Shown: one piece after another, positions 35,519-48,547 of the stretch
How the letters are laid out: the number at the start of each line of letters is the position of its first letter
Position numbering within the stretch: position 1 is the stretch's first letter
The notes under the pieces: model-generated
Seen by the model: only the letters and a program-made list of their open reading frames with translations
What the model was told of the DNA's origin: nothing
Databases searched by the model: none
Program-made: the position numbers and the translations under genes
Origin: Chloracidobacterium sp. CP2_5A
GTDB taxonomy: Bacteria > Acidobacteriota > Blastocatellia > Chloracidobacteriales > Chloracidobacteriaceae
DNA length: 54,157 nt
Assembly: GCA_002254845.1 (NCBI GenBank)
Contig: NKPT01000016.1
Location: 1-54,157 of the forward strand
Reading direction: 5' to 3'

Positions 35519-36004
35519 CGATTTTGGGCAGCCACGGCGGCGACTTCTCTTCCCTGCCTTTATGGACGCTCAAATAGACCGACTTGGGCGGGCATGGGCG
35601 GGCGCCTTGGCGCGTGAAACCATCGCTTTTGGCCCGCTTGAAGCCGCTCGCGCTTGGTTGGCGACGCAAGCCGCCGTTTCCGAAGTCGCCCCGACGACGT
35701 CGGATCGCGGCGCGCCCCCCAATCCCGGCATGCCGGGAATGAAGCCATTGCAACCCATGACGAGCAAGACATTGACGGCGCCGAGCGCGTAGAAACCAAG
35801 CCGTCACAGCGCGCCCATAAGCTTGTCGCCTGCGACAAGGCCATTCGGGATGCCGCGAGCAACGGCATCCCTTTTTCTCTTCCGCCCCGGCTATGCCTTT
35901 TCAGCCGAAGCTTCGTTTTTGGGCAACGCCAGAGCTGTTACACTTCATCGGTCTCCATAGCTTCGCGACCGCCACGGCGCAATTGGGCGGAATCAATCAA
36001 GGAC
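35519..36004 (+). other. 486-base interval without a supported protein gene
   Basis: Between the S9 peptidase and the FGE-like gene I find no convincing CDS. A 76-codon ORF begins at ATG 35562 but has no ribosome-binding site and low-complexity content. The interval holds an 8-bp hairpin CTTGTCGC-CT-GCGACAAG (35822-35839) directly before a Rho-independent terminator. The terminator lies about 330 bases past the peptidase stop, so either the peptidase mRNA has a long 3' region or a separate small RNA is made here. Confidence 0.5.
35847..35879 (+). terminator. Rho-independent terminator
   Basis: Arms GGGATGCCG (35847-35855) and CGGCATCCC (35863-35871) form a perfect 9-bp stem with a 7-base loop and run into TTTTTCTCTT. 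A second small hairpin sits just upstream. It would end transcription from the peptidase gene or from a short RNA within 35519-35846. Confidence 0.88.
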
Positions 36005-37159
36005 ATGACTCCACACCGGACAGACCATCGCCTTTGGCGCGCGGGCTTGGCTCTGAGCGCGTTTCTGGTCATCGCCGCGCTAGACGCAGGCGCTAGCGCC
36101 GCCGCCCAGGAGCGCAGCACCAGCGTCGGCGGCAGGCCAGCCGGCGGCGATGAAGCAGGCAAGCCCGTCAGCGGCGGCAGAAAGCGCGGCGGCGGAAAAC
36201 CCGCCCGTCCAACTGGGCCGACGGAACCGCCGTGTCCGGCAAGTCCGCTCGCGCCGACGGTCAGTTTGCCGTCCGAACAGCTTTCCGCCTTTGCCTTTGA
36301 AACCCCGCGCCTGGACGCCCAGGGCAACATCGTCGAAACGCTCAAAAAAGAAACCGTCCGCTTTACGGAAATCTTGAGTGACGGAATTGCGCTGGAACTC
36401 GTCGCTGTGCCGGGCGAGTGTTTCACCATGGGAGCGTCCAAAGACAACGCCGGCGAAAACGAGGGCCCGCCCATCCGATCGCGGGTACTCGGCTTTTACA
36501 TGGGACGGACGGAAGTCACCCAGGCGCAGTGGCGCATCGTCGCCGGCTGGCCGAAAGTCGAGCGCGACCTGCCGCCGGAGCCGTCCAAGCACAAAGGCGA
36601 CAACCTTCCCGTGGACAGCGTTACCTGGGACGAAGCCGTGGAGTTCTGCCGCCGGCTAACGAAAAAAACTGGCCGCCCCTACCGCCTGCCAACGGAAGCT
36701 GAATGGGAATACGCCTGCCGGGCGGGCGCGACGGGCATGTTCTCGTACGGGCCGGTTCTGACCGCGCGGCTTGAAAACTACGATAGCTCGTTGCCCTACG
36801 GCGACGAGCCGGCCGCGCCGGCCCGCAAGCAGCCGACGCCGGTCGGGTCGCTAGCTGTCAACGCCTTTGGGCTGGCCGATATGCACGGCAACGTCCGCGA
36901 GTGGTGTCTGGATGACTATACGCCGCGCCTGACCAGCGCCCACGCGTACGGCCGCCCGGCGCGCAATCAGCGCGCGGGGGAGGAAGGCCAGTCCCGCGCC
37001 ATCCGCGGCGGCTCGTGGGCGGCGCTGCCCGACGGCTGCCGCTGCTCCATACGGGATAGCCTCCACCGCGAGGATTTCCTCACCATTCTGGGCTTTCGCG
37101 TTGTACTAAGCGACCACTACGGCGACGGTCAACCGACGGGCGACAATGACGAGGAATAA
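36005..37159 (+). CDS. Secreted formylglycine-generating-enzyme-like (SUMF1) protein
   Basis: A 384-residue protein with a signal peptide (about 10-35, ending ASAAAQ), a basic Gly/Pro linker, and an FGE-sulfatase domain at about 120-375. The domain is marked by VPGECFTMGAS, the MGRTEVTQAQW segment, RLPTEAEWEYACRAG, GLADMHGNVREWCLDDY, IRGGSWAALPDGCR and GFRVVL. True FGE oxidises a sulfatase cysteine and uses two cysteines just after GGS(Y/W). Here the first is replaced (GGSWAAL) and only CRC remains further on, so canonical copper-oxidase activity is doubtful. The in-frame ATG at 36005 is chosen for the signal peptide. Confidence 0.8.
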   Translation: MTPHRTDHRLWRAGLALSAFLVIAALDAGASAAAQERSTSVGGRPAGGDEAGKPVSGGRKRGGGKPARPTGPTEPPCPASPLAPTVSLPSEQLSAFAFETPRLDAQGNIVETLKKETVRFTEILSDGIALELVAVPGECFTMGASKDNAGENEGPPIRSRVLGFYMGRTEVTQAQWRIVAGWPKVERDLPPEPSKHKGDNLPVDSVTWDEAVEFCRRLTKKTGRPYRLPTEAEWEYACRAGATGMFSYGPVLTARLENYDSSLPYGDEPAAPARKQPTPVGSLAVNAFGLADMHGNVREWCLDDYTPRLTSAHAYGRPARNQRAGEEGQSRAIRGGSWAALPDGCRCSIRDSLHREDFLTILGFRVVLSDHYGDGQPTGDNDEE

Positions 37160-37185: not shown

Positions 37186-38349
37186 TCAGATTGGCGCTAA
37201 TCTGAGAGCCTGCCCCTTCGCATAAACAAACGCATCCTCCAGCGTTGGAAACTCGGCGGCAAAGCTTTCGTGTAACCCCCGGGCGACTTGCTCGATCGTC
37301 CAACCGGCATCGAGCTTGGTTAACAAGAAGAGTTGCGCCTGCCCGTGGACGCCGAGTCCTGGCGCGGCGTCGGACGCCAGCGGGCGTAGGCGCTCCGGCG
37401 TGGCCAACCAGCCTTCAAAGTCGGAGTGCCGAAATGTTCGGGACGCCCCGCCGACGCCCCGCCAGGTCACTTCCCAGCGCAGCAAGCTGCCGCCGCCGAT
37501 GGCGGTCAGGCTGACTTCAACCTCGTCTCCGGCCGTCACCGGCAGCGGCTCGGCGATAGGCAAACACAAATGTCCCCAACTAGTCGGCTCGCCGCAGGGA
37601 TCATTGGTAACGCTGACGGCAGCGGTCAGCGCGGCTCTGAACCAGCCGCCGACGCCCTGCATGAGGCCGGACTGACTCGCGCGAAACGTCGCTTTTCCAG
37701 CAATCCTTGGCAGCGTCGCGCCGGACAGCGCTTCGCCGGTCAGACTCAGCCGCTCATAGCATTGCCCCTCTGCCAGGAGATGTTGGGGGCGCAGCCGCCG
37801 CGCGTACTGTTGGTTTACAGCGAACGCCAGCCCGGATGAGAAGTCGAAACCGCAAACCGGCCGCCGCCAGACCGACAACGCCGGCTCCTCTTCCTCTGGC
37901 CACGCGATGGGGGCACAGTATAGCTCCAGCGCCTGCGGAATGACGCTTCCGCCGGGCTTGAGCCAGCGCCGGCAAGCGTTGTGGAGCGTTGGCAAAATCC
38001 TCTCTTCCGGGCCGTAGTTACCAATCGTTTCGGATACAATGACATCCGCCAGCTCCGGCAGCTCAGCTTGCTGAGATGGGCAGTTGATGAATGTCACCCG
38101 GTCAGCGTAGCCGTTTTGATGCAGGATCAGCTTTGCCAGCTCGATGATTGGGCCATCGTCAATCGCATAGACGCGGCGCGCGCCGGCGCGACAGGCAAAA
38201 AGCGTGAGAATCCCCGTGCCGCACCCAATATCCGCGACGACATCGCCCGACCGCACAGCCGATGCAATGGCGGATTGAAAGGCGCCTACCCGGCGCTCAT
38301 CGGCAATCAGCGAGGCGTGATAGGTCAGGGCGACGTAATCGGCGTACAT
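37186..38349 (-). CDS. Protein-arginine-methyltransferase-like SAM methyltransferase with PqqD-like tail
   Basis: From ATG 38349 the protein has 387 residues. An upstream in-frame start at 38451 would add 34 residues of poor quality. Residues 1-30 (MYADYVALTYHASLIADERR) resemble the PRMT N-terminal helix pattern. Motif I is VVADIGCGTGIL (37-48), post-I is YAIDD (61-65), and SETIGNYGPEE (106-116) corresponds to the double-E loop that binds the arginine guanidinium. About 165-320 form the beta-barrel-like substrate domain. The last 55 residues (AQLFLLTKLDAGWTIEQVARGL ... EDAFVYAKGQALRL) resemble the winged-helix PqqD/RRE fold that binds RiPP leaders, which is inference. It lies 3.3 kb from the lasso genes on the opposite strand. 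The substrate is unknown. Confidence 0.72.
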   Translation of the reverse strand: MYADYVALTYHASLIADERRVGAFQSAIASAVRSGDVVADIGCGTGILTLFACRAGARRVYAIDDGPIIELAKLILHQNGYADRVTFINCPSQQAELPELADVIVSETIGNYGPEERILPTLHNACRRWLKPGGSVIPQALELYCAPIAWPEEEEPALSVWRRPVCGFDFSSGLAFAVNQQYARRLRPQHLLAEGQCYERLSLTGEALSGATLPRIAGKATFRASQSGLMQGVGGWFRAALTAAVSVTNDPCGEPTSWGHLCLPIAEPLPVTAGDEVEVSLTAIGGGSLLRWEVTWRGVGGASRTFRHSDFEGWLATPERLRPLASDAAPGLGVHGQAQLFLLTKLDAGWTIEQVARGLHESFAAEFPTLEDAFVYAKGQALRLAPI

Positions 38350-41669: not shown

Positions 41670-41963
41670 ATGGTTGACCTTCGCTGCTGCGCCACAATTC
41701 CAAGTCACCTGATTGTCCGTTATATCGCTGACGAAGCTGTTTTGCTCAACTTGCTCACGGAGCGTTATTATACGCTTGATAGCGTGTCCTGTAGCATGCT
41801 GCGACAATCCACGAGGTGCGCCTCCCTAGCGCAGGCTATCGAGGCGTTGCTGGATGAATATGAGGTGGAGCGCGAGCGGCTTGTGGAGGATTTCACGACG
41901 TTTATCAATCAACTCTGTGAAGCCGGACTCATCGAGATTGTACCGCCGCCTCCGCTTCAGTAG
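41670..41963 (+). CDS. Lasso peptide B1 protein (PqqD-like RiPP recognition element)
   Basis: From ATG 41670 (GGAGAAG upstream) the protein has 97 residues, the normal size. An upstream extension to TTG 41493 has no support. It is a stand-alone PqqD-fold protein. The N-terminal beta strands (HLIVRYIADEAVLLNLLTERYYTLD, about 13-37) form the groove that binds the leader of the precursor. A winged-helix part follows (ASLAQAIEALLDEYEVERERLVEDFTTFINQLCEAGLIEIV, about 51-91). In split lasso systems B1 holds the leader and presents it to the B2 protease and the C cyclase. B2 starts 13 bases downstream. Confidence 0.88.
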   Translation: MVDLRCCATIPSHLIVRYIADEAVLLNLLTERYYTLDSVSCSMLRQSTRCASLAQAIEALLDEYEVERERLVEDFTTFINQLCEAGLIEIVPPPPLQ

Positions 41964-41976
41964 CAGCGACTGACTT

Positions 41977-42432
41977 ATGAACCGTCGCTTCCGCCAACTC
42001 AGAGCCTTCTGGCAGCTTCCGCTGGGCGACCGCGCCGGCCTTTTAGCAGCTTGGGGGCTGCTGCTGAGCATTGACGCCCTGTGCTGGCTCATGGGCGCTC
42101 GGTGCTGCTTGCGTTGGCTGAGGCGGGCGGCAGGCTTCCAGAAAACAGCGCGGCCGCCGGATAGCTGGGTCATCTGTCAAGCCGAACTCGTCAGCCGCGC
42201 GGCGCGACACACCCCGCGTCCGACGACCTGTCTGATTCGGGCGATGGCGTTGTGGTTTTTGCTGACACGGCGTGGCGTCGCCTGCGACATCATCCTCGGC
42301 GTTCAAAAAAAAATGCGACATACGCTCGAAGCTCATGCCTGGGTTGAATGGAAGGGGCGGCCGTTGCTGGAAACCGCTGATGTACGGCAACGTTACGCCG
42401 CTTTTGAGCGTCCCTTGTCATCCTTGCTGTGA
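41977..42432 (+). CDS. Lasso peptide B2 leader protease (transglutaminase-like)
   Basis: A 151-residue cysteine protease of the Transglut_core3 family. The catalytic Cys85 sits in RPTTCLIRAMAL and the His120 in LEAHAWVEW. Asp135 after the GRPLLETAD segment is a candidate for the third member. The N-terminal 50 residues (LPLGDRAGLLAAWGLLLSIDALCWLMG) form the helical region that docks with B1. It cleaves the leader after the residue following the conserved Thr, freeing the Ala amino group that the cyclase uses. The stop at 42432 lies seven bases before the cyclase GTG, so the genes are translationally coupled. Confidence 0.9.
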   Translation: MNRRFRQLRAFWQLPLGDRAGLLAAWGLLLSIDALCWLMGARCCLRWLRRAAGFQKTARPPDSWVICQAELVSRAARHTPRPTTCLIRAMALWFLLTRRGVACDIILGVQKKMRHTLEAHAWVEWKGRPLLETADVRQRYAAFERPLSSLL

Positions 42433-42439
42433 GCGACAG

Positions 42440-44272
42440 GTGAGCAGCTTTTTCGTCCTCGTCCAACCTGGTCCCCCCGCCGAGCCAGCGTTGACGGAGC
42501 GGTTGCTTCAGTCCTTAGCTTGGCGCGGACCCGACGGGCAGGAGCGGTGGCAGGACGCGCAGGTGGCGATGGGCTACGCCCACCTCCACGCGGACGATCT
42601 GACGCGGACGCCGCCGCCGCTCACGTTTGACCATCAGGTGTGGCTAGCAGCCGACATTCGGCTGGACGAGCGAGATGAACTGTGCCGCGCCCTCCAAGCG
42701 GCCGGTTTCGATGCCTCGCCCGCCGACTGCGACGCTAAGCTGCTTTGGCGGGCGTACTGCGCGTGGGAAACGGATTGCCTGCGCCGTCTTCATGGCGACT
42801 TTGCCTTTGCGTTGTGGGACGCGCCGCGTCGGCGAATCTTCTGCGCGCGCGACCGCTTTGCCGTCAAGCCGCTGTACTACAGTCACCGGCCGCAACTGTT
42901 TTTGGCGGCGAGCGCGTTAGACACGATCTGCGCGCACCCGGAGACGCCGACCAGCATCCCCGACGACCTGGATGAATTCGCCGTCGCGGATTTTCTCATC
43001 CACGGTATGAAGATGGACGAAGACGGGACGTTTTTTCGCGCTGCCCGCCGGCTTCCGCGCGCGTATGCGTTGTGCTTGGAACGCGGGATGTTGCGGCAGT
43101 GGCGCTACTGGGACTGGCCGACTGATGGGCGCCTCCGGTATCGGCGCTTTCACGACTATGCGGAGCATTTTCAGGCGGCGCTGGGCGAAGCCGTGGCCGA
43201 CCGGCTGCGCGCGCCGCGAGCGGCGGTGTTTCTCAGCGGCGGTCTTGATTCCAACGTCGTGACAGCCGCCGCGCGACAGGCGTCGCCGACAACCGCGCTG
43301 CATGCCTTCACAAACGTCTTTGACTGGCTGATTCCCGATGATGAGCGACGTTTTGCGCAGATGGCGGCGCAGGCGCATGGCGTGCCAATAACCTTCATCG
43401 CCCATGACGATTGGCAGCCTTACGCGCCGCACCCGGAGGTGGCGCAACCGCCGCCAGAGCCAGTTCACGAGCCGTTTTGGAGCGGCATCATGGAAAGCTA
43501 CCGGCGAGCTGCCGCGTACGCCCGCGTGTTGTTGACGGGGCAGTGGGGCGACGAGGCGTTGGCGCAGGAAACCGCGCCGTACCTGCGCGAGCTGCTTGCG
43601 CAGCGTCGGATGGCGGCGCTTGGCAAAGCTCTTGCGGATTACTTCATCAGCGATGCGCGCAACGGCTTTTACGCGCTCCGCCGGCGGTTTAGCTGGGCGC
43701 GCCCGGCGGCCCCAAGCTCTGCGCTTCCCCAGTGGCTTGCGCCCGACTTTATCGAGCGATTGCGTCGCGCCGGCTACTTTGAACGTCAGGCGGACGAGCC
43801 GCCGATTCATCCTTGGCGCCGCTGCATGGTACAGGCGCTCAGTCGGGTTCACATGGCCAACGATCATGAGTACAGCGATCCGGCCTTTACCGGGGCGCTG
43901 GTCGAGATGCGCTATCCGTTGCTCGATCTGCGGGTCGTCGAGTTCCTCCTGGCAATCCCGACAGTTCCCGCTTGCTTAAACAAGCGGCTTTTTCGGGAAT
44001 TGCTCAAAAACCGTCTTCCGCGCGCCGTTGTCCAGCGGTCGAAAACCCCGCTGCGGCAGTTCCCCATCACCGGCTATATTCAACGACACGGCACAGACTG
44101 GGCGCGCCTGTCCGCTTCAGATCAAGCTCAACGCTGCCTAGCGCGCTTTGTAGCAAGCAACGCCTTGCGTCGAAAGCTTATTTGGAATCCACAACAAGAA
44201 GCACAATCTTTTGTTGACCTCAGCCCGCTAAGCTTATACAAGTGGATGCAATCAAAAGTTGCATCGACGTAA
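42440..44272 (+). CDS. Lasso peptide macrolactam cyclase C (asparagine-synthetase-like)
   Basis: GTG 42440, just after the B2 stop, gives 610 residues beginning SSFFVLVQPG. The ATG at 42272 would overlap B2 and add unrelated sequence. The N-terminal half (about 1-200) is a class II glutaminase-like domain (LAWRGPDGQ, GDFAFALWD, ARDRFAVKPLYY) without the Cys2 nucleophile, as expected for lasso cyclases, which do not use glutamine. The C-terminal half has the ATP-pyrophosphatase loop FLSGGLDSN (SGGLDS at 266-271). The enzyme adenylates the side-chain carboxylate of the ring Asp and joins it to the core N-terminus while the peptide is threaded. Length and position next to B1 and B2 rule out ordinary AsnB. 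Confidence 0.9.
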   Translation: MSSFFVLVQPGPPAEPALTERLLQSLAWRGPDGQERWQDAQVAMGYAHLHADDLTRTPPPLTFDHQVWLAADIRLDERDELCRALQAAGFDASPADCDAKLLWRAYCAWETDCLRRLHGDFAFALWDAPRRRIFCARDRFAVKPLYYSHRPQLFLAASALDTICAHPETPTSIPDDLDEFAVADFLIHGMKMDEDGTFFRAARRLPRAYALCLERGMLRQWRYWDWPTDGRLRYRRFHDYAEHFQAALGEAVADRLRAPRAAVFLSGGLDSNVVTAAARQASPTTALHAFTNVFDWLIPDDERRFAQMAAQAHGVPITFIAHDDWQPYAPHPEVAQPPPEPVHEPFWSGIMESYRRAAAYARVLLTGQWGDEALAQETAPYLRELLAQRRMAALGKALADYFISDARNGFYALRRRFSWARPAAPSSALPQWLAPDFIERLRRAGYFERQADEPPIHPWRRCMVQALSRVHMANDHEYSDPAFTGALVEMRYPLLDLRVVEFLLAIPTVPACLNKRLFRELLKNRLPRAVVQRSKTPLRQFPITGYIQRHGTDWARLSASDQAQRCLARFVASNALRRKLIWNPQQEAQSFVDLSPLSLYKWMQSKVAST

Positions 44273-44303
44273 GGCGTATCTTTTACTAACTTTGGAGCCC
44301 CGT

Positions 44304-44492
44304 ATGGCGTCAAGTCCACTAATGCAAGCTATGCCCTGCAAGTCGCTCACGAGCGAGAAGCTATTGCTCAAGAAGCCCTATCACCCGCCAAAGCTGACCG
44401 ATCATGGCACGTTGCTGGAGCTAACGCTAGCTAGTTTCGGTGACGGCAGAGTAGACCGCATCGGGCCTCGCCCAAACCGGGCTTCCCGCTAG
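44304..44492 (+). CDS. Lasso peptide precursor A
   Basis: A 62-residue precursor with GGAG six bases before ATG 44304. The leader contains Y26, P29, L31, G35 and T41, which fit the lasso leader signature YxxPxLxxxGxxxxxT exactly. Thr41 is the conserved penultimate leader residue, so cleavage after Leu42 leaves a core of residues 43-62: ASFGDGRVDRIGPRPNRASR. Ala1 and Asp9 of the core (A43, D51) give a nine-residue macrolactam ring. Arginines fall at core positions 7, 10, 14, 17 and 20, and Arg14 or Arg17 are possible steric plugs. It lies between the cyclase (31 bases) and the kinase (8 bases). Confidence 0.87.
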   Translation: MASSPLMQAMPCKSLTSEKLLLKKPYHPPKLTDHGTLLELTLASFGDGRVDRIGPRPNRASR

Positions 44493-44500
44493 CAATCCGG

Positions 44501-45454
44501 ATGGACCTCTATTATGGGGTGTACGGGTTGCGGCTGGCAGCAACGGTCAGGATTCCCTTCTTGCGAGAGCTGCCGGACACCCTTGGCTTGCCGGACATCG
44601 CGGTTTCTTTTGAGGAAGGAAAGCCGCTGGCAACTGTTCAAGAAGACAAGCCCTGGTACCAAGCCCCTTCCGCGCCGGGAGAGGGGCCGGAGCTGGTCGC
44701 TTACCGCGAGCCGGAAACGCGCCGGGTGCGTTTTCGCTACGCCGGCGGGACAGTCTTTGACTACGATCTGGGCAACGGGCGGCTAACTGCTTGCTGGCTC
44801 TTACCTCAGACGTTTGAAGACGCCTGCACCTACTTGGTGGGCCCCATCCTTGGCTTCGCCCTGCAAATGCGTCACCGCGCCTGCCTGCACGCTAGCGTGG
44901 CGGCGATTGGCGACTCGGCCGTGGCGTTTGTCGGTCCGAACGGGTCCGGCAAATCCACGCTGGCCGCTGCGCTTTTGAGACGGGGCGCGCGGATTGTCAC
45001 GGAAGACGTCGCAGCGATTGAACGGCGGGCTGGTGGCATTTGCGCTCACTATGGCCCGCGCGCGATCCGCCTGTGGTCGCCCTCCGTAACGGCGCTTTAC
45101 GGTTACCCTAACGCCTTGCCACAGATTTCCAAGCACTGGGGAAAGCAGTACCTGACGCTCGATGAGCGGGACAACGAGTGGGAACAAGGGGCTTCGCTGA
45201 GGGCAATCTACCTGCTTGAAGTCAGCGGCTCTAACGCGCCGGTCGCCTGCGAGCCGCTCGCGCCGGCAGCGGCGGTCGGCAAGCTGATGGCGAATATTTA
45301 TCCAGGTTGGCTGCCGATCCCGGAAGCGCGGGTCGCCATACTAGACACGCTGATTGATTTGGTCGCCGCGCTGCCGGTGGCTCGCCTCTCTCTGCCCAGC
45401 AGATTCGCCCGATTAAACGATGTCTGCGACTACTTGCTGGCGCGTCATGCCTAG
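44501..45454 (+). CDS. HPr-kinase-like protein of the lasso cluster
   Basis: A 317-residue protein with one P-loop domain. Walker A is G145-PNGSGKST-T153, preceded by the LHASVAAIGDSAVAFVG strand, and followed by the ARIVTEDVAAIE segment typical of HprK-type kinases. The first 120 residues are a separate beta-rich domain. Relatives in Firmicutes and Proteobacteria lasso clusters (the paeninodin-type kinase) phosphorylate the precursor's terminal serine. Here the core has Ser19 next to last and Ser2. Whether the Mg-binding residues are complete cannot be judged without alignment. It is the last gene of the cluster and ends inside the left arm of an inverted repeat. Confidence 0.83.
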   Translation: MDLYYGVYGLRLAATVRIPFLRELPDTLGLPDIAVSFEEGKPLATVQEDKPWYQAPSAPGEGPELVAYREPETRRVRFRYAGGTVFDYDLGNGRLTACWLLPQTFEDACTYLVGPILGFALQMRHRACLHASVAAIGDSAVAFVGPNGSGKSTLAAALLRRGARIVTEDVAAIERRAGGICAHYGPRAIRLWSPSVTALYGYPNALPQISKHWGKQYLTLDERDNEWEQGASLRAIYLLEVSGSNAPVACEPLAPAAAVGKLMANIYPGWLPIPEARVAILDTLIDLVAALPVARLSLPSRFARLNDVCDYLLARHA

Positions 45455-45584
45455 CCGGCTTTCCAAGCCAGCGGGGCGATAGCGCGAAGCCCGCTCTCGG
45501 CCCTGGCGCGCTTTGGGAGGGACAGCTTCGCGGCGGTCCCCCAGTCGCCGCATCTTCTTAGAAGGCGCTTGGAAAGCGCGCTAG
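45451..45584. repeat. 134-bp interval bounded by 18-bp inverted repeats
   Basis: The arms CTAGCCGGCTTTCCAAGC (45451-45468) and GCTTGGAAAGCGCGCTAG (45567-45584) are complementary at 16 of 18 positions. The CTAG ends supply the stop codon of the lasso kinase gene (45452-45454) and of the convergent protein kinase gene (45581-45583). Between them lie smaller GC-rich hairpins. This may be a bidirectional terminator-like structure or a small inserted repeat (MITE-like). No transposase or clear target duplication is seen. Confidence 0.65.
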
Positions 45585-48547
45585 GGATCGGCGTCCAGCG
45601 CGGCAGGCGTGGCGGGCGTCGCCGCCCGGGTGGGCGCGTCGAGCGCCTCAGTCAACGCCATCGTCGGCGCGTCATCCGGCGACGGCGGCGCGGAAGACGC
45701 GCCGCCGATGGCGCCGGTGGCCGCGGCGTAGGCTCGCAAGGCGGGAATTACGGCTCCTTGAAACTCGCCAACCGTCGCGTATCGCCGTTCCGGCGCGCTC
45801 GCCAGCGCGCGCTTCAAAATCCGCTCCAGCGCCTTGGCTTCGGGCGCCGCCCCCAACGGCAGGCGCGGTTCTTGCCCTCTGGTCGCAATAACGTACTCGC
45901 TGAAGCTTCGGCGCGGAAATGGCGTATCGCCCGTTAGGCATTCGGCCAGCATGGCGGCGAGCGAGAATAAATCGCTGCGGGCGTCGGTTTCGTAGCCAAG
46001 CGATTGCTCAGGAGCCATGTAACCGACCGTGCCCATCACCATGCCGGGTCGCGTAATGCTGTACCCGTCATCCGCGTTCGATTTGGCGAGACCAAAGTCG
46101 AGGACCTTGACAAGGGTTAGCCGCTCGTCGGCGCGGCACACGACGATATTTTCCGGCTTCAAGTCGCGGTGGACGATCCCGGCCGCATGCGCGGACTTGA
46201 TTCCCTCAAAGACCTGATCAAACCAGGCGGCAGCCGTCAAGCCGTCCAAGACGCCCAGCCGGCGCAGCTCGGCGCGTAGCGAGCGCCCATTGACGACCTC
46301 CATCACCAGATAAGCGCCGTCGGCCCCAGTGCGTCCGAAATCATAAATGGCGACAAGGTTGGGATGGCGCAGCGCGGCGGCGACCCGCGCCTCGCGCTCA
46401 AAGCGGCGCAGCGCCGCCGGGTCGCCGAACAGATGCGCCAGGATCACCTTGACGGCGACCGGACGATTAAGCCGCAGGTCATGAGCCAGGTACACCGCGC
46501 CCATGCCGCCTTTGCCGAGCAGCTTGTCAAGCCGATACTTGCCTTCGATGACGCGCTCGACGGGAAGCGCGAGCGTGAGTTCCGCGCGGTCGTCGGCGCA
46601 GAGGTTCGCGTTGGCGTCATAGCAGCGGCCGCAGGCGGGACATTCCTTGACCAGGTTGATGGACTGCTCATCCAAGCGCGCCAGCACCTCGCGCCGCATC
46701 CGCTCCACCCGGTCAACCCGCGCCTTGAGCAGCGCATTGTCGTGGATAATCCCGACTTGCTTGGCCATAGCCTGCAAGATCTGGCGGTCACGCGCGGAGT
46801 AGGGCTCCTCAGACTGCTTTTCGCCCAGCAACATCAACCCAACGAGCCGTCCATCGGCGTCTTTCATCGGTACAATCAATACCGCCTGCGCTTGCTCCAG
46901 AATGGCCACTTCCGCAGCGCTCAATTGAGCCTCCGGTGGCAAGGGCGCTTCCTGCGGACCGGTGGACAGTTGCATGTATTTGGCCAGGGGGGAGCGCTCC
47001 GGCAAGTCCAAGTAACGGCTCGGCTGCGAGTTTTCAATTAGCGTCACTTGACCGACGGAGGAGGAAAGAAAGCTCAGGCGAAAGGTTTTCGGGCGCAGCG
47101 CCGCCGACACTTCCCGCTTCACCAGCTCCGTTAGCTCGTCCAGCGAGATTTGCTGCTGGAGTTGCTCCATGAGGCCGACGAGCAGCCGCTCGCGGTCATA
47201 TTGGTCGCGGAAAAATCGCCGGTCTATCCATTGCTGAAGCGACGCGCGAAAGCGCAAGCCGAGCGCTCCGGCAATCCCCAGCGCAATCGAAAGCGGGTTT
47301 TCCAGAAAGAGCTCCCGAATGGTGAGCTCGGTGTTGAGCAGCGCCCTGAGCGCCAGCCAGGCTAGCGGCGCGGCCACCAGGATGGTCAGCGCCCGCTGGG
47401 CCAGCGCGTACTGCACCCCGCGCCGAATAATCACCCGCGCGTCAAAGAGGCGATGCCGGATGATGGCGTAGCCCAGCGTGACCGGCATGGCGACCGGGGC
47501 GATTTCCGAGGCGAACGTCAGCCCCCGGTAAGCCGCGCTCGTCGCCAGCGCGCTCCGGTAAGCGTCAAAGACAATCTCGACCCCTACCAGCGACGCAAAC
47601 GGAATAACCCCCGCCAGCGCGCCATAGACAGCCCACGCCACCCGGCGACGCTTCCCAGGCTCGGTCAGGCGGCGGTAGTTGCGCGTGAGGACGACAACAA
47701 TGCCGACAAAGCCCGCCAGCATGTAGATCAGCGTCGCAGAGTCAAGCGCGTGAAACGCCCAGTTCGCTCGCGCGAAGCGCTTGATGGCGAGTTCCTTGCC
47801 TTGCAGCGTCGCCCAGTCGAGCCAGCGATAGCCAAGAGCGAGCGCCGCGCCTGCCACGTAAAGGGCCAGCGTTACGCCGCGCCACAATGGCGACAGCGGC
47901 GCGCCGCTCGGAAAGCGGGCGTAAAAATGAAAGCCTATCGCCAGAAAGATTGGGTAGGAGGAGGCAACGCTGTAAAAAGCCGCCAGCCCATGAGGTGAAA
48001 AATAGACCGCTGCCGGTTCCAGCATCCGAAAGTACGGGATGGCGGCAGTCGCCAATGCCGCCAGCGCGCCCAATCGCGCCAGCGTGTCTTCCGGGCGCAA
48101 AAAGGCTAGAAAAAGCGCCAGCCCGGCAAACGAGAGACTCACCAAGCCATAGGAAAGCGACTGCCATAGCTTGTCCCACGTCCAGCGGCGCGCCGCCGTC
48201 AGCGCGACTTCCTCGATCGCGCCGTTTCGGGCGAGGCGCAGCGTGTAGGGCTGTTCCGTTGGGACGTCGCGCAGATGCAGCCACATCACGCGCCCGCGCG
48301 CGCCGTCGTCCAGTCGGTCATCGCCGTTGATCGCTAAGATAAGACTTCCGTCCAGCGGACGAAGCGCCTCCCGCTCAGCCACCAGAACATACCCTTTCGC
48401 GCCAACCTTAGGCCGCCATCCGAAGTCTTTTTCAAAGCCGCCGTAGCGCGCCAGCATCGCCGCCCCGAACGCAAGGTAAAACGCCGCCACGATTGCCATG
48501 GCGGTCGCAACCAGCAGAAATGGATGGCGGCTCTTCGGCGGCGTCAC
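45581..48547 (-). CDS. Multidomain membrane Ser/Thr protein kinase
   Basis: A 988-residue sensor kinase starting at GTG 48547. Order: an N-terminal helix (about 10-35), a PDZ-like exterior segment (about 45-115), seven or eight membrane helices (about 125-430), a GAF-like sensor domain (about 455-605), a four-cysteine zinc ribbon (CPACGRCYDANANLC, about 632-648), then a Hanks-type kinase (about 670-930) with GKGGMGAVYLA, HRDLKPENIV near 790, DFGLAKSN near 817 and MAPEQ. The catalytic and metal residues are intact, so it should be active. The last 50 residues are disordered. The membrane part resembles that of bacterial 7TM histidine kinases. The cobQ stop is 18 bases upstream. Confidence 0.88.
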   Translation of the reverse strand: MTPPKSRHPFLLVATAMAIVAAFYLAFGAAMLARYGGFEKDFGWRPKVGAKGYVLVAEREALRPLDGSLILAINGDDRLDDGARGRVMWLHLRDVPTEQPYTLRLARNGAIEEVALTAARRWTWDKLWQSLSYGLVSLSFAGLALFLAFLRPEDTLARLGALAALATAAIPYFRMLEPAAVYFSPHGLAAFYSVASSYPIFLAIGFHFYARFPSGAPLSPLWRGVTLALYVAGAALALGYRWLDWATLQGKELAIKRFARANWAFHALDSATLIYMLAGFVGIVVVLTRNYRRLTEPGKRRRVAWAVYGALAGVIPFASLVGVEIVFDAYRSALATSAAYRGLTFASEIAPVAMPVTLGYAIIRHRLFDARVIIRRGVQYALAQRALTILVAAPLAWLALRALLNTELTIRELFLENPLSIALGIAGALGLRFRASLQQWIDRRFFRDQYDRERLLVGLMEQLQQQISLDELTELVKREVSAALRPKTFRLSFLSSSVGQVTLIENSQPSRYLDLPERSPLAKYMQLSTGPQEAPLPPEAQLSAAEVAILEQAQAVLIVPMKDADGRLVGLMLLGEKQSEEPYSARDRQILQAMAKQVGIIHDNALLKARVDRVERMRREVLARLDEQSINLVKECPACGRCYDANANLCADDRAELTLALPVERVIEGKYRLDKLLGKGGMGAVYLAHDLRLNRPVAVKVILAHLFGDPAALRRFEREARVAAALRHPNLVAIYDFGRTGADGAYLVMEVVNGRSLRAELRRLGVLDGLTAAAWFDQVFEGIKSAHAAGIVHRDLKPENIVVCRADERLTLVKVLDFGLAKSNADDGYSITRPGMVMGTVGYMAPEQSLGYETDARSDLFSLAAMLAECLTGDTPFPRRSFSEYVIATRGQEPRLPLGAAPEAKALERILKRALASAPERRYATVGEFQGAVIPALRAYAAATGAIGGASSAPPSPDDAPTMALTEALDAPTRAATPATPAALDADP

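Follow-up and report, generated by a model that had tools for sequence, protein, structure and literature searches.

A conserved lasso peptide gene cluster in Chloracidobacterium, predicted to yield a phosphorylated and probably methylated peptide

The gene cluster and its enzymes

The window analyzed here, 54,157 nucleotides of Chloracidobacterium sp. CP2_5A (contig NKPT01000016.1 of assembly GCA_002254845.1), contains five open reading frames, B1, B2, C, A, and K, that lie in this order on the plus strand at positions 41670 to 45454 and are separated by 13, 7, 31, and 8 bases. An earlier note, made from the sequence alone, had described these genes as a lasso peptide cluster with gaps of 7 to 31 bases, and place, strand, and spacing were indeed correct. 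Likewise, B1, B2, and C and, barely, A scored above the cut-offs of protein families that fit this assignment, and the set is almost certainly lasso peptide machinery. It is adjoined by M, a gene for a methyltransferase that resembles protein arginine methyltransferases (PRMTs) and that belongs to a subfamily linked to lasso loci across the Acidobacteriota.

B1 (41670 to 41963, plus strand, 97 residues) is a PqqD-like leader-binding protein, i.e., a recognition element (RRE) of ribosomally synthesized and posttranslationally modified peptides (RiPPs). It matched PqqD (PF05402) with 48.6 bits (cut-off 23.4) and stayed under the cut-offs of the lasso PqqD models, with 41.3 versus 80 for lasso_PqqD_Bac. 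B2 (41977 to 42432, plus strand, 151 residues), a transglutaminase-like leader peptidase, matched lasso_biosyn_B2 (NF033537) with 65.9 bits (cut-off 33). The earlier note had let its reading depend on the catalytic residues of B2; of these, Cys and His are invariant in all 11 aligned sequences, but the position 12 residues after the His, at which McjB has the Asp expected as third catalytic residue, is occupied by Glu in all six sequences of the genus (in the five relatives, by Asp three times and by Asn and Gly once each). C (42440 to 44272, plus strand, 610 residues, GTG start) is an Asn-synthetase-like macrolactam cyclase with 116.5 bits against Asn_synthase (PF00733; cut-off 21). The lasso cyclase model NF033535 gave 274.7, below its cut-off of 525 yet the best match in NCBIfam, and the asparagine synthase model TIGR01536 gave 187.6, below its cut-off of 267.1. 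In an alignment of 10 sequences, C starts with Met-Ser-Ser, without the Cys2 that the note had also found missing, and carries the ATP site SGGLDS.

K (44501 to 45454, plus strand, 317 residues) had been called HPr kinase-like, and it is an HPrK-like peptide kinase, weakly so by sequence: it reached 23.7 bits against Hpr_kinase_C, below the cut-off of 33.3, and the profile of nine K proteins had HPrK (1jb1) as its top PDB match (E = 8.7e-8). The model of K (predicted local distance difference test [pLDDT], 90.4) has the fold of the kinases of the phosphoenolpyruvate carboxykinase (PEPCK) type (2pxz: Z = 17.3, root mean square deviation [rmsd] of 4.1 over 267 residues), the superfamily to which HPrK belongs as well; HPrK was absent among the best 50 matches listed by Foldseek and VIA, all of which were PEPCK. 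His130, the P-loop residues Lys151 and Ser152, and Asp169 are kept in 9 of 9 aligned K proteins. Residue 168 is Glu in all five genus sequences and Asp in the four others aligned.

The precursor and its predicted product

A (44304 to 44492, plus strand) encodes a lasso precursor of 62 residues, which matched lasso_leader_L3 (NF033521) with 19.1 bits, barely above the cut-off of 19, and gave no match in the PDB. Its leader contains the motif YHPPKLTDHGTLLELT, of the YxxPxL type, and a Thr at position -2. By the established rule that Thr stands at -2, the predicted core is ASFGDGRVDRIGPRPNRASR (44430 to 44489), with an Asp within core positions 7 to 9. The product is predicted to have a ring from Ala1 to Asp9, a tail of residues 10 to 20, and a phosphate on the penultimate residue, Ser19. 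The mass of 2165.13 Da given by the earlier note is right for the dehydrated core; the calculated value for the linear core is 2183.14 Da. Phosphorylation by K would bring the ring-closed form to 2245.10 Da, and each methyl group added by M would contribute 14.016 Da.

Seven precursors were read from five genomes of the genus, two each in G001 and G004. Ala1, Asp9, and the terminal Ser-Arg are kept in all seven. The cores have 20 residues in five cases, 19 in one, and 18 in one; since core length varies while Ser-Arg stays last, the Ser is fixed from the C-terminal end and not from the ring. The core of G006 contains no Ser or Thr other than Ser19, and across the genus, no hydroxyl residue is conserved at core position 2 or 3. 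Ser19 is the predicted target, and we consider its phosphorylation by K likely. The cores carry two to five arginines, with Arg last in 7 of 7.

Nonsynonymous (pN) and synonymous (pS) differences were calculated for five orthologous precursors (10 pairs). The tail gave a pN of 0.119 and a pS of 0.692, the ring gave 0.397 and 0.734, and the leader gave 0.226 and 0.831. The tail is the most constrained part of the precursor and is under purifying selection. The additional, diverged precursors in G001 and G004, with the cores ASGNGGTPDSILMRNASR and ASGTGFRVDRALRTSRASR, lie between C and the main precursor (L034, 9872, and L035, 10102, on the reverse complement of the locus).

Conservation in the genus

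Chloracidobacterium is a photosynthetic acidobacterium, and the genus is known from hot springs. Where the earlier note had seen an Acidobacteriota-like host, the host is indeed acidobacterial, and the genus carries the Fenna-Matthews-Olson (FMO) antenna protein: family PF02327 was found above its cut-off in 7 of 7 genus genomes and in 0 of 14 control genomes. Among acidobacteria, FMO is a mark of Chloracidobacterium, of which one species, C. thermophilum, is available as an isolate (PMC4644332). Three of these seven genomes consist of two contigs, and in these the cluster genes are open. C was detected in six of the seven (the copy in G003 is interrupted by a contig end) and was not detected in G002, which is 85% complete. 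K was detected in all seven, in G002 and G003 as fragments at contig ends. A stop flagged in C of G001 and G004 is the terminal stop of the gene, and the suspicion that C is broken there was rejected. Contigs of the two draft genomes G002 (C70) and G003 (C44 and C59) end within the cluster, close to the precursor or kinase, perhaps at repeated precursors. Second, weak K-like proteins were seen at G000:C27:132699-132962, G002:C24:7847-8530, and G003:C44:32418-32729.

In seven other genomes of the family and order, C had remote matches only (best E = 1.6e-36) and M had no match at 1e-10. No close plasmid relatives of C were found among 300 plasmid records, all of which were below 60% identity.

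A PRMT-like methyltransferase beside the cluster

M (37186 to 38349, minus strand) encodes a protein of 387 residues whose closest PDB relatives are PRMT6 chains (E = 3.9e-32). Its best model superimposed on mouse PRMT6 (4c04) with a Z score of 31.6 and an rmsd of 2.2 over 283 aligned residues, with 28% identity; the mean pLDDT of this model was 72.8, and those of the four other models were 49 to 60. The match to the PRMT fold spans residues 1 to 313 and is followed by about 75 residues, a C-terminal extension at approximately residues 315 to 387. M and the cluster were both located in six genus genomes; M adjoins the cluster in all six, twice with one gene in between. In G001, G004, and G005, it is next to B1 and divergent from it, and it is also beside B1 in G003. 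There is only one match to M at 1e-10 in the genome of the window.

All six genus M proteins have the loop SETIGNYG[PA]EE, which contains both PRMT glutamates, aligned with those of PRMT6, and they keep the Tyr, Tyr, and His of the N-terminal PRMT helix. At the Thr-His-Trp (THW) loop, all six have Thr-Ser-Trp, and therefore we call M PRMT-like and not a PRMT. Among 17 other lasso-linked M proteins, the first glutamate is replaced by Asp in 16 and the second is lost in 15, and none has kept both. In 11 PRMT-like proteins without a lasso link, by contrast, the first glutamate is present in 11 and the second in 10. Among the 23 lasso-linked M proteins examined, both glutamates thus occur in the six of the genus only, and M of Chloracidobacterium alone resembles an arginine methyltransferase.

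Related loci in the Acidobacteriota

The search for M in the class covered 162 genomes and gave about 56 places, for which 30 loci were fetched. The 15 best places (at least 369 bits) were all in lasso loci. Nine of these are rows of the query alignment, and six (G003, G016, G058, G034, G145, and G132) are outside it. In 12, genes for K, C, or B proteins lie within 1.5 kb; the other three are the window and G006, across one gene, and G034, 1.7 kb from K. The place in G016 is on a contig onto which the lasso locus of this genome extends (97.8% identity at the K end), and in G037, G022, and G050, the M homologue is located 3' of K on the same strand with an overlap of 13 bases. For the phylum, 396 genomes were searched and nine newly fetched loci were inspected; in eight, genes for K, C, or B proteins lie no farther than 1.5 kb away, and G389 has none. 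Seven of the eight were read further: six contain C, and G367, at a contig start, contains only K and M.

A profile of the extension (last 98 residues) matched all six genus M proteins and, in total, 22 of the 23 lasso-linked ones at E < 1e-5. Eleven of the 23 had been used to build it; of the 12 others, 11 were below 1e-5 and the shortened protein of G488 was at 0.013. The extension was found in 0 of 11 PRMT-like proteins that have no B1, B2, or C within 1.5 kb. Three of these 11 have a K-like gene near: G062 and G130, both with one on the same contig within about 2.3 kb, and G053 (very weak, E = 2.5e-4). L101 (G129) and L103 (G105) are outside the residue alignments and had no match in the search for the extension. 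Extension-bearing M proteins were also seen in G059, G060, and G064 (L111, L113, and L112), where the 12 to 14 kb read contained no lasso genes; beside two of these three, there is, by eye, an apparent lone PqqD-like protein, and possibly another RiPP system employs M there.

We also compared the C-terminal part of M with known leader-binding domains. It matched PqqD in 4 of 13 members (best E = 0.0029), and profile comparison with B1 gave a probability of 0.5%. The idea of a proven PqqD or RRE domain was rejected on the B1 comparison, and we take the PqqD matches as a hint. In a tree test that left out the three extension-bearing rows, a grouping of the M proteins of the genus with the remaining lasso-linked ones was rejected (p = 2.7e-5). 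When these three rows were included, the joint grouping was not rejected (approximately unbiased [AU] test, p = 0.12), and when four long rows were removed, genus and other lasso-linked M formed one side of a branch with a support of 78/68. The extension is common to both groups, which favors a single origin.

The earlier note had regarded the position of A between C and K as unusual. It is in fact the usual order: in 9 of 9 class relatives in which C, A, and K were read (G016, G022, G037, G050, G058, G081, G132, G144, and G034, with 11 candidate precursors), the order is C-A-K or C-A-A-K. M is linked in eight of these; in the ninth, G144, K lies at the end of one contig and a fragment of M at the end of another. 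Ten of the 11 precursors are free of Arg and have Lys-Thr at or near the end (NKT, NKTD, NKTS, PKTG, and similar); the precursor of G034 has Arg and no Lys-Thr. In seven genomes of other classes, we found eight candidate precursors (two in G491), three with Lys-Thr and four with Arg. A clean covariation of Arg content with the PRMT glutamates was considered and rejected: 10 of 11 class cores are Arg free, yet 4 of 8 elsewhere contain Arg. G141 (L071), of the same class as the window, has two candidate precursors flanking a K-like gene, a paeninodin-like arrangement, with no match to M; both precursors have Ser as their last residue and also contain Arg. A pattern search gave no precursor for the majority of the weaker K places.

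Neighboring genes

A gene for a DUF7948 protein (PF25778; 38503 to 41319, minus strand, 938 residues) lies between M and B1. It separates the two in the window and in G006 and is not found in the four other genus loci read; it is not thought to be a member of the lasso system. On the other side, M adjoins a sulfatase-modifying-enzyme-like (FGE-sulfatase-like) protein gene (35654 to 37159), which is present in 5 of 5 other genus loci read. A large Ser/Thr protein kinase gene (45581 to 48547) follows 3' of K in the window, and by eye, a histidine biosynthesis-like gene is at this place in G006 and G005. The downstream neighbor thus differs between these genomes, and synteny breaks just after K.

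The cluster had been described as lacking an exporter. Indeed, no ATP-binding cassette (ABC) exporter was seen by eye in the long open frames around the cluster in the genus loci. One permease-like frame in L033 resembles, by eye, an importer component. In G034 (L109, 1591 to 3447, minus strand), the gene after M resembles an ABC exporter by eye, and some relatives may carry an exporter within the cluster.

Discussion

We interpret the locus as a functional class II-like lasso cluster of Chloracidobacterium whose peptide is phosphorylated and probably methylated, and we put the probability of this reading at roughly 0.7. B1 would recognize the leader through YxxPxLxxxG, and K would phosphorylate the penultimate Ser19 while the leader is still attached. 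M would probably methylate a residue of the same precursor, in Chloracidobacterium most likely an arginine. B2 would then remove the leader after Leu at position -1, the residue next to Thr(-2), and C would activate Asp9 with ATP and join it to the amino group of Ala1, a ring closure that would trap the basic tail of 11 residues. The genes with their families and folds, the conservation, the selection on the tail, and the linkage of M-type genes to lasso loci were observed here, whereas the catalytic steps, the threading, and the sites of modification are predictions. We consider it likely that M is part of the lasso system; its subfamily is linked to lasso loci and it adjoins the cluster, so that the earlier claim that B1-B2-C-A-K is a complete set is not supported. 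For arginine as the target of M, which the loop glutamates suggest, we would offer odds slightly short of even. A more specific proposal is to be taken as tentative: the product would be a doubly decorated lasso peptide, with K phosphorylating the penultimate Ser and M N-methylating at least one Arg of the tail. M would then represent a phylum-wide RiPP tailoring subfamily of PRMT fold with its own, possibly leader-binding, C-terminal part, elsewhere mostly without the Arg-binding glutamates and with another target, perhaps the Lys of the Lys-Thr end.

Several points weigh against this interpretation. The lasso peptide is so far a prediction. B2 carries Glu where Asp is expected, and K of the genus has Glu168-Asp169 instead of Asp-Asp, both Asp residues of which matter in BsfK (PMC10368454). 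M is divergent to the cluster genes in the genus and 3.3 kb away from them in the window. Its FGE-like neighbor is equally syntenic, so that adjacency alone is a weak argument for M. Among the five models of M, only the best is of good quality (mean pLDDT, 72.8), and in the tree, the M proteins of the genus are not firmly joined to the remaining lasso-linked ones. Finally, Arg in the core does not follow the PRMT glutamates cleanly, since 4 of 8 candidate cores of other classes and the core of G034 contain Arg beside an M of the Asp type.

M could belong to the system and have a target other than arginine, such as Lys, a carboxylate, the leader, or a protein of the machinery, as is presumably the case for M of the Asp type. 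In favor of this, ten of the 11 cores read near K and M in the class (in G144, with M on another contig end) lack Arg and have Lys-Thr near the end, the first PRMT glutamate is Asp in 16 of 17 lasso-linked M outside the genus, and the genus M itself has Thr-Ser-Trp instead of Thr-His-Trp. However, the genus M has both loop glutamates and the Tyr, Tyr, and His of the N-terminal PRMT helix, and Arg ends every genus core. We regard this explanation as rather unlikely. It is somewhat less likely still that B1-B2-C-A-K is an ordinary phospho-lasso cluster and M an unrelated, syntenic neighbor that acts on other proteins or RNA. The opposite strand of M, the FGE-like gene that is as syntenic as M, the DUF7948 gene that intervenes in two genomes, and the weak link in the tree would all fit such a neighbor. 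It does not explain why M homologues lie at K or C of lasso loci over the phylum or why the extension is present in lasso-linked M but in none of the 11 PRMT-like proteins that lack B1, B2, and C genes in the surrounding 1.5 kb, and the single M match at 1e-10 in the window genome also argues against it. That the cluster is decaying or silent, with B2 and K out of work after the loss of a catalytic Asp, is very improbable: Glu does stand at the acid site of B2 and Glu-Asp in K of all genus sequences aligned, but the two-contig genomes have intact reading frames for these genes, purifying selection acts on the tail, and the Glu is conserved rather than random. The changes are fixed across the genus and do not resemble decay.

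The predicted phospho-lasso pathway has known counterparts. The systems of paeninodin, ThcoK, and SyanK, as reviewed in PMC9266682, share B1, B2, C, A, and a tailoring kinase whose substrate is the linear precursor, as well as a hydroxyl residue at the distal end of the core. The phosphosite in the paeninodin type is, however, the C-terminal Ser (PMC9266682), whereas here, in all seven precursors, the Ser is penultimate and Arg comes last. Further differences from the paeninodin type are Glu-Asp for Asp-Asp in the genus kinase and the PRMT-like gene nearby. The BsfA/BsfK system of Bradymonas sediminis (PMC10368454) is similar in its distant HPrK-like kinase, its discrete B1 and B2, and its gram-negative host, and BsfA-related precursors are reported there in Acidobacteriaceae. 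BsfK targets Ser3 of the core, whereas the genus cores have no conserved hydroxyl in the ring. Moreover, genes for an ABC transporter and a nucleotidyltransferase are present in the Bsf cluster, whose precursor has Ile at position -2 (PMC10368454), in contrast to Thr(-2) in Chloracidobacterium. Acidobacterial lasso clusters from soil metagenomes (PMC9064862) share the phylum, the machinery, and, in one case, the order B1-B2-C-A; two tables of that report name no gene as a methyltransferase, with some genes given just as hypothetical, and one cluster includes a named kinase, which belongs to a different type. M shares the fold and the double-glutamate loop with eukaryotic PRMT6 and its relatives, from which it differs in its identity of 28%, Thr-Ser-Trp, the additional C-terminal part, and the RiPP setting. 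The product had been expected to be undescribed, and we found no paper in the open-access literature that joins a lasso peptide and Chloracidobacterium. A pairing of lasso peptides with PRMTs or arginine methylation was not found in the open-access literature either, where the matches were an unrelated preprint (PMC12637814) and, for PRMTs with RiPPs, a fungal paper; an earlier mention elsewhere is possible.

As scaffolds, lasso peptides are stable and evolvable; few decorations of them are known, and their roles in the organisms that make them are mostly unknown. Here, a lasso peptide is kept across a genus of chlorophototrophs, and selection mainly on the tail suggests a specific partner for this part of the molecule. 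If our interpretation of M is true, it would add a type of methylation to lasso peptides and give a protein family known mainly from eukaryotes a place in RiPP biosynthesis. The PRMT fold with the extension beside an HPrK-like kinase would then be a search handle with which a class of decorated lasso peptides could be sought in the Acidobacteriota.

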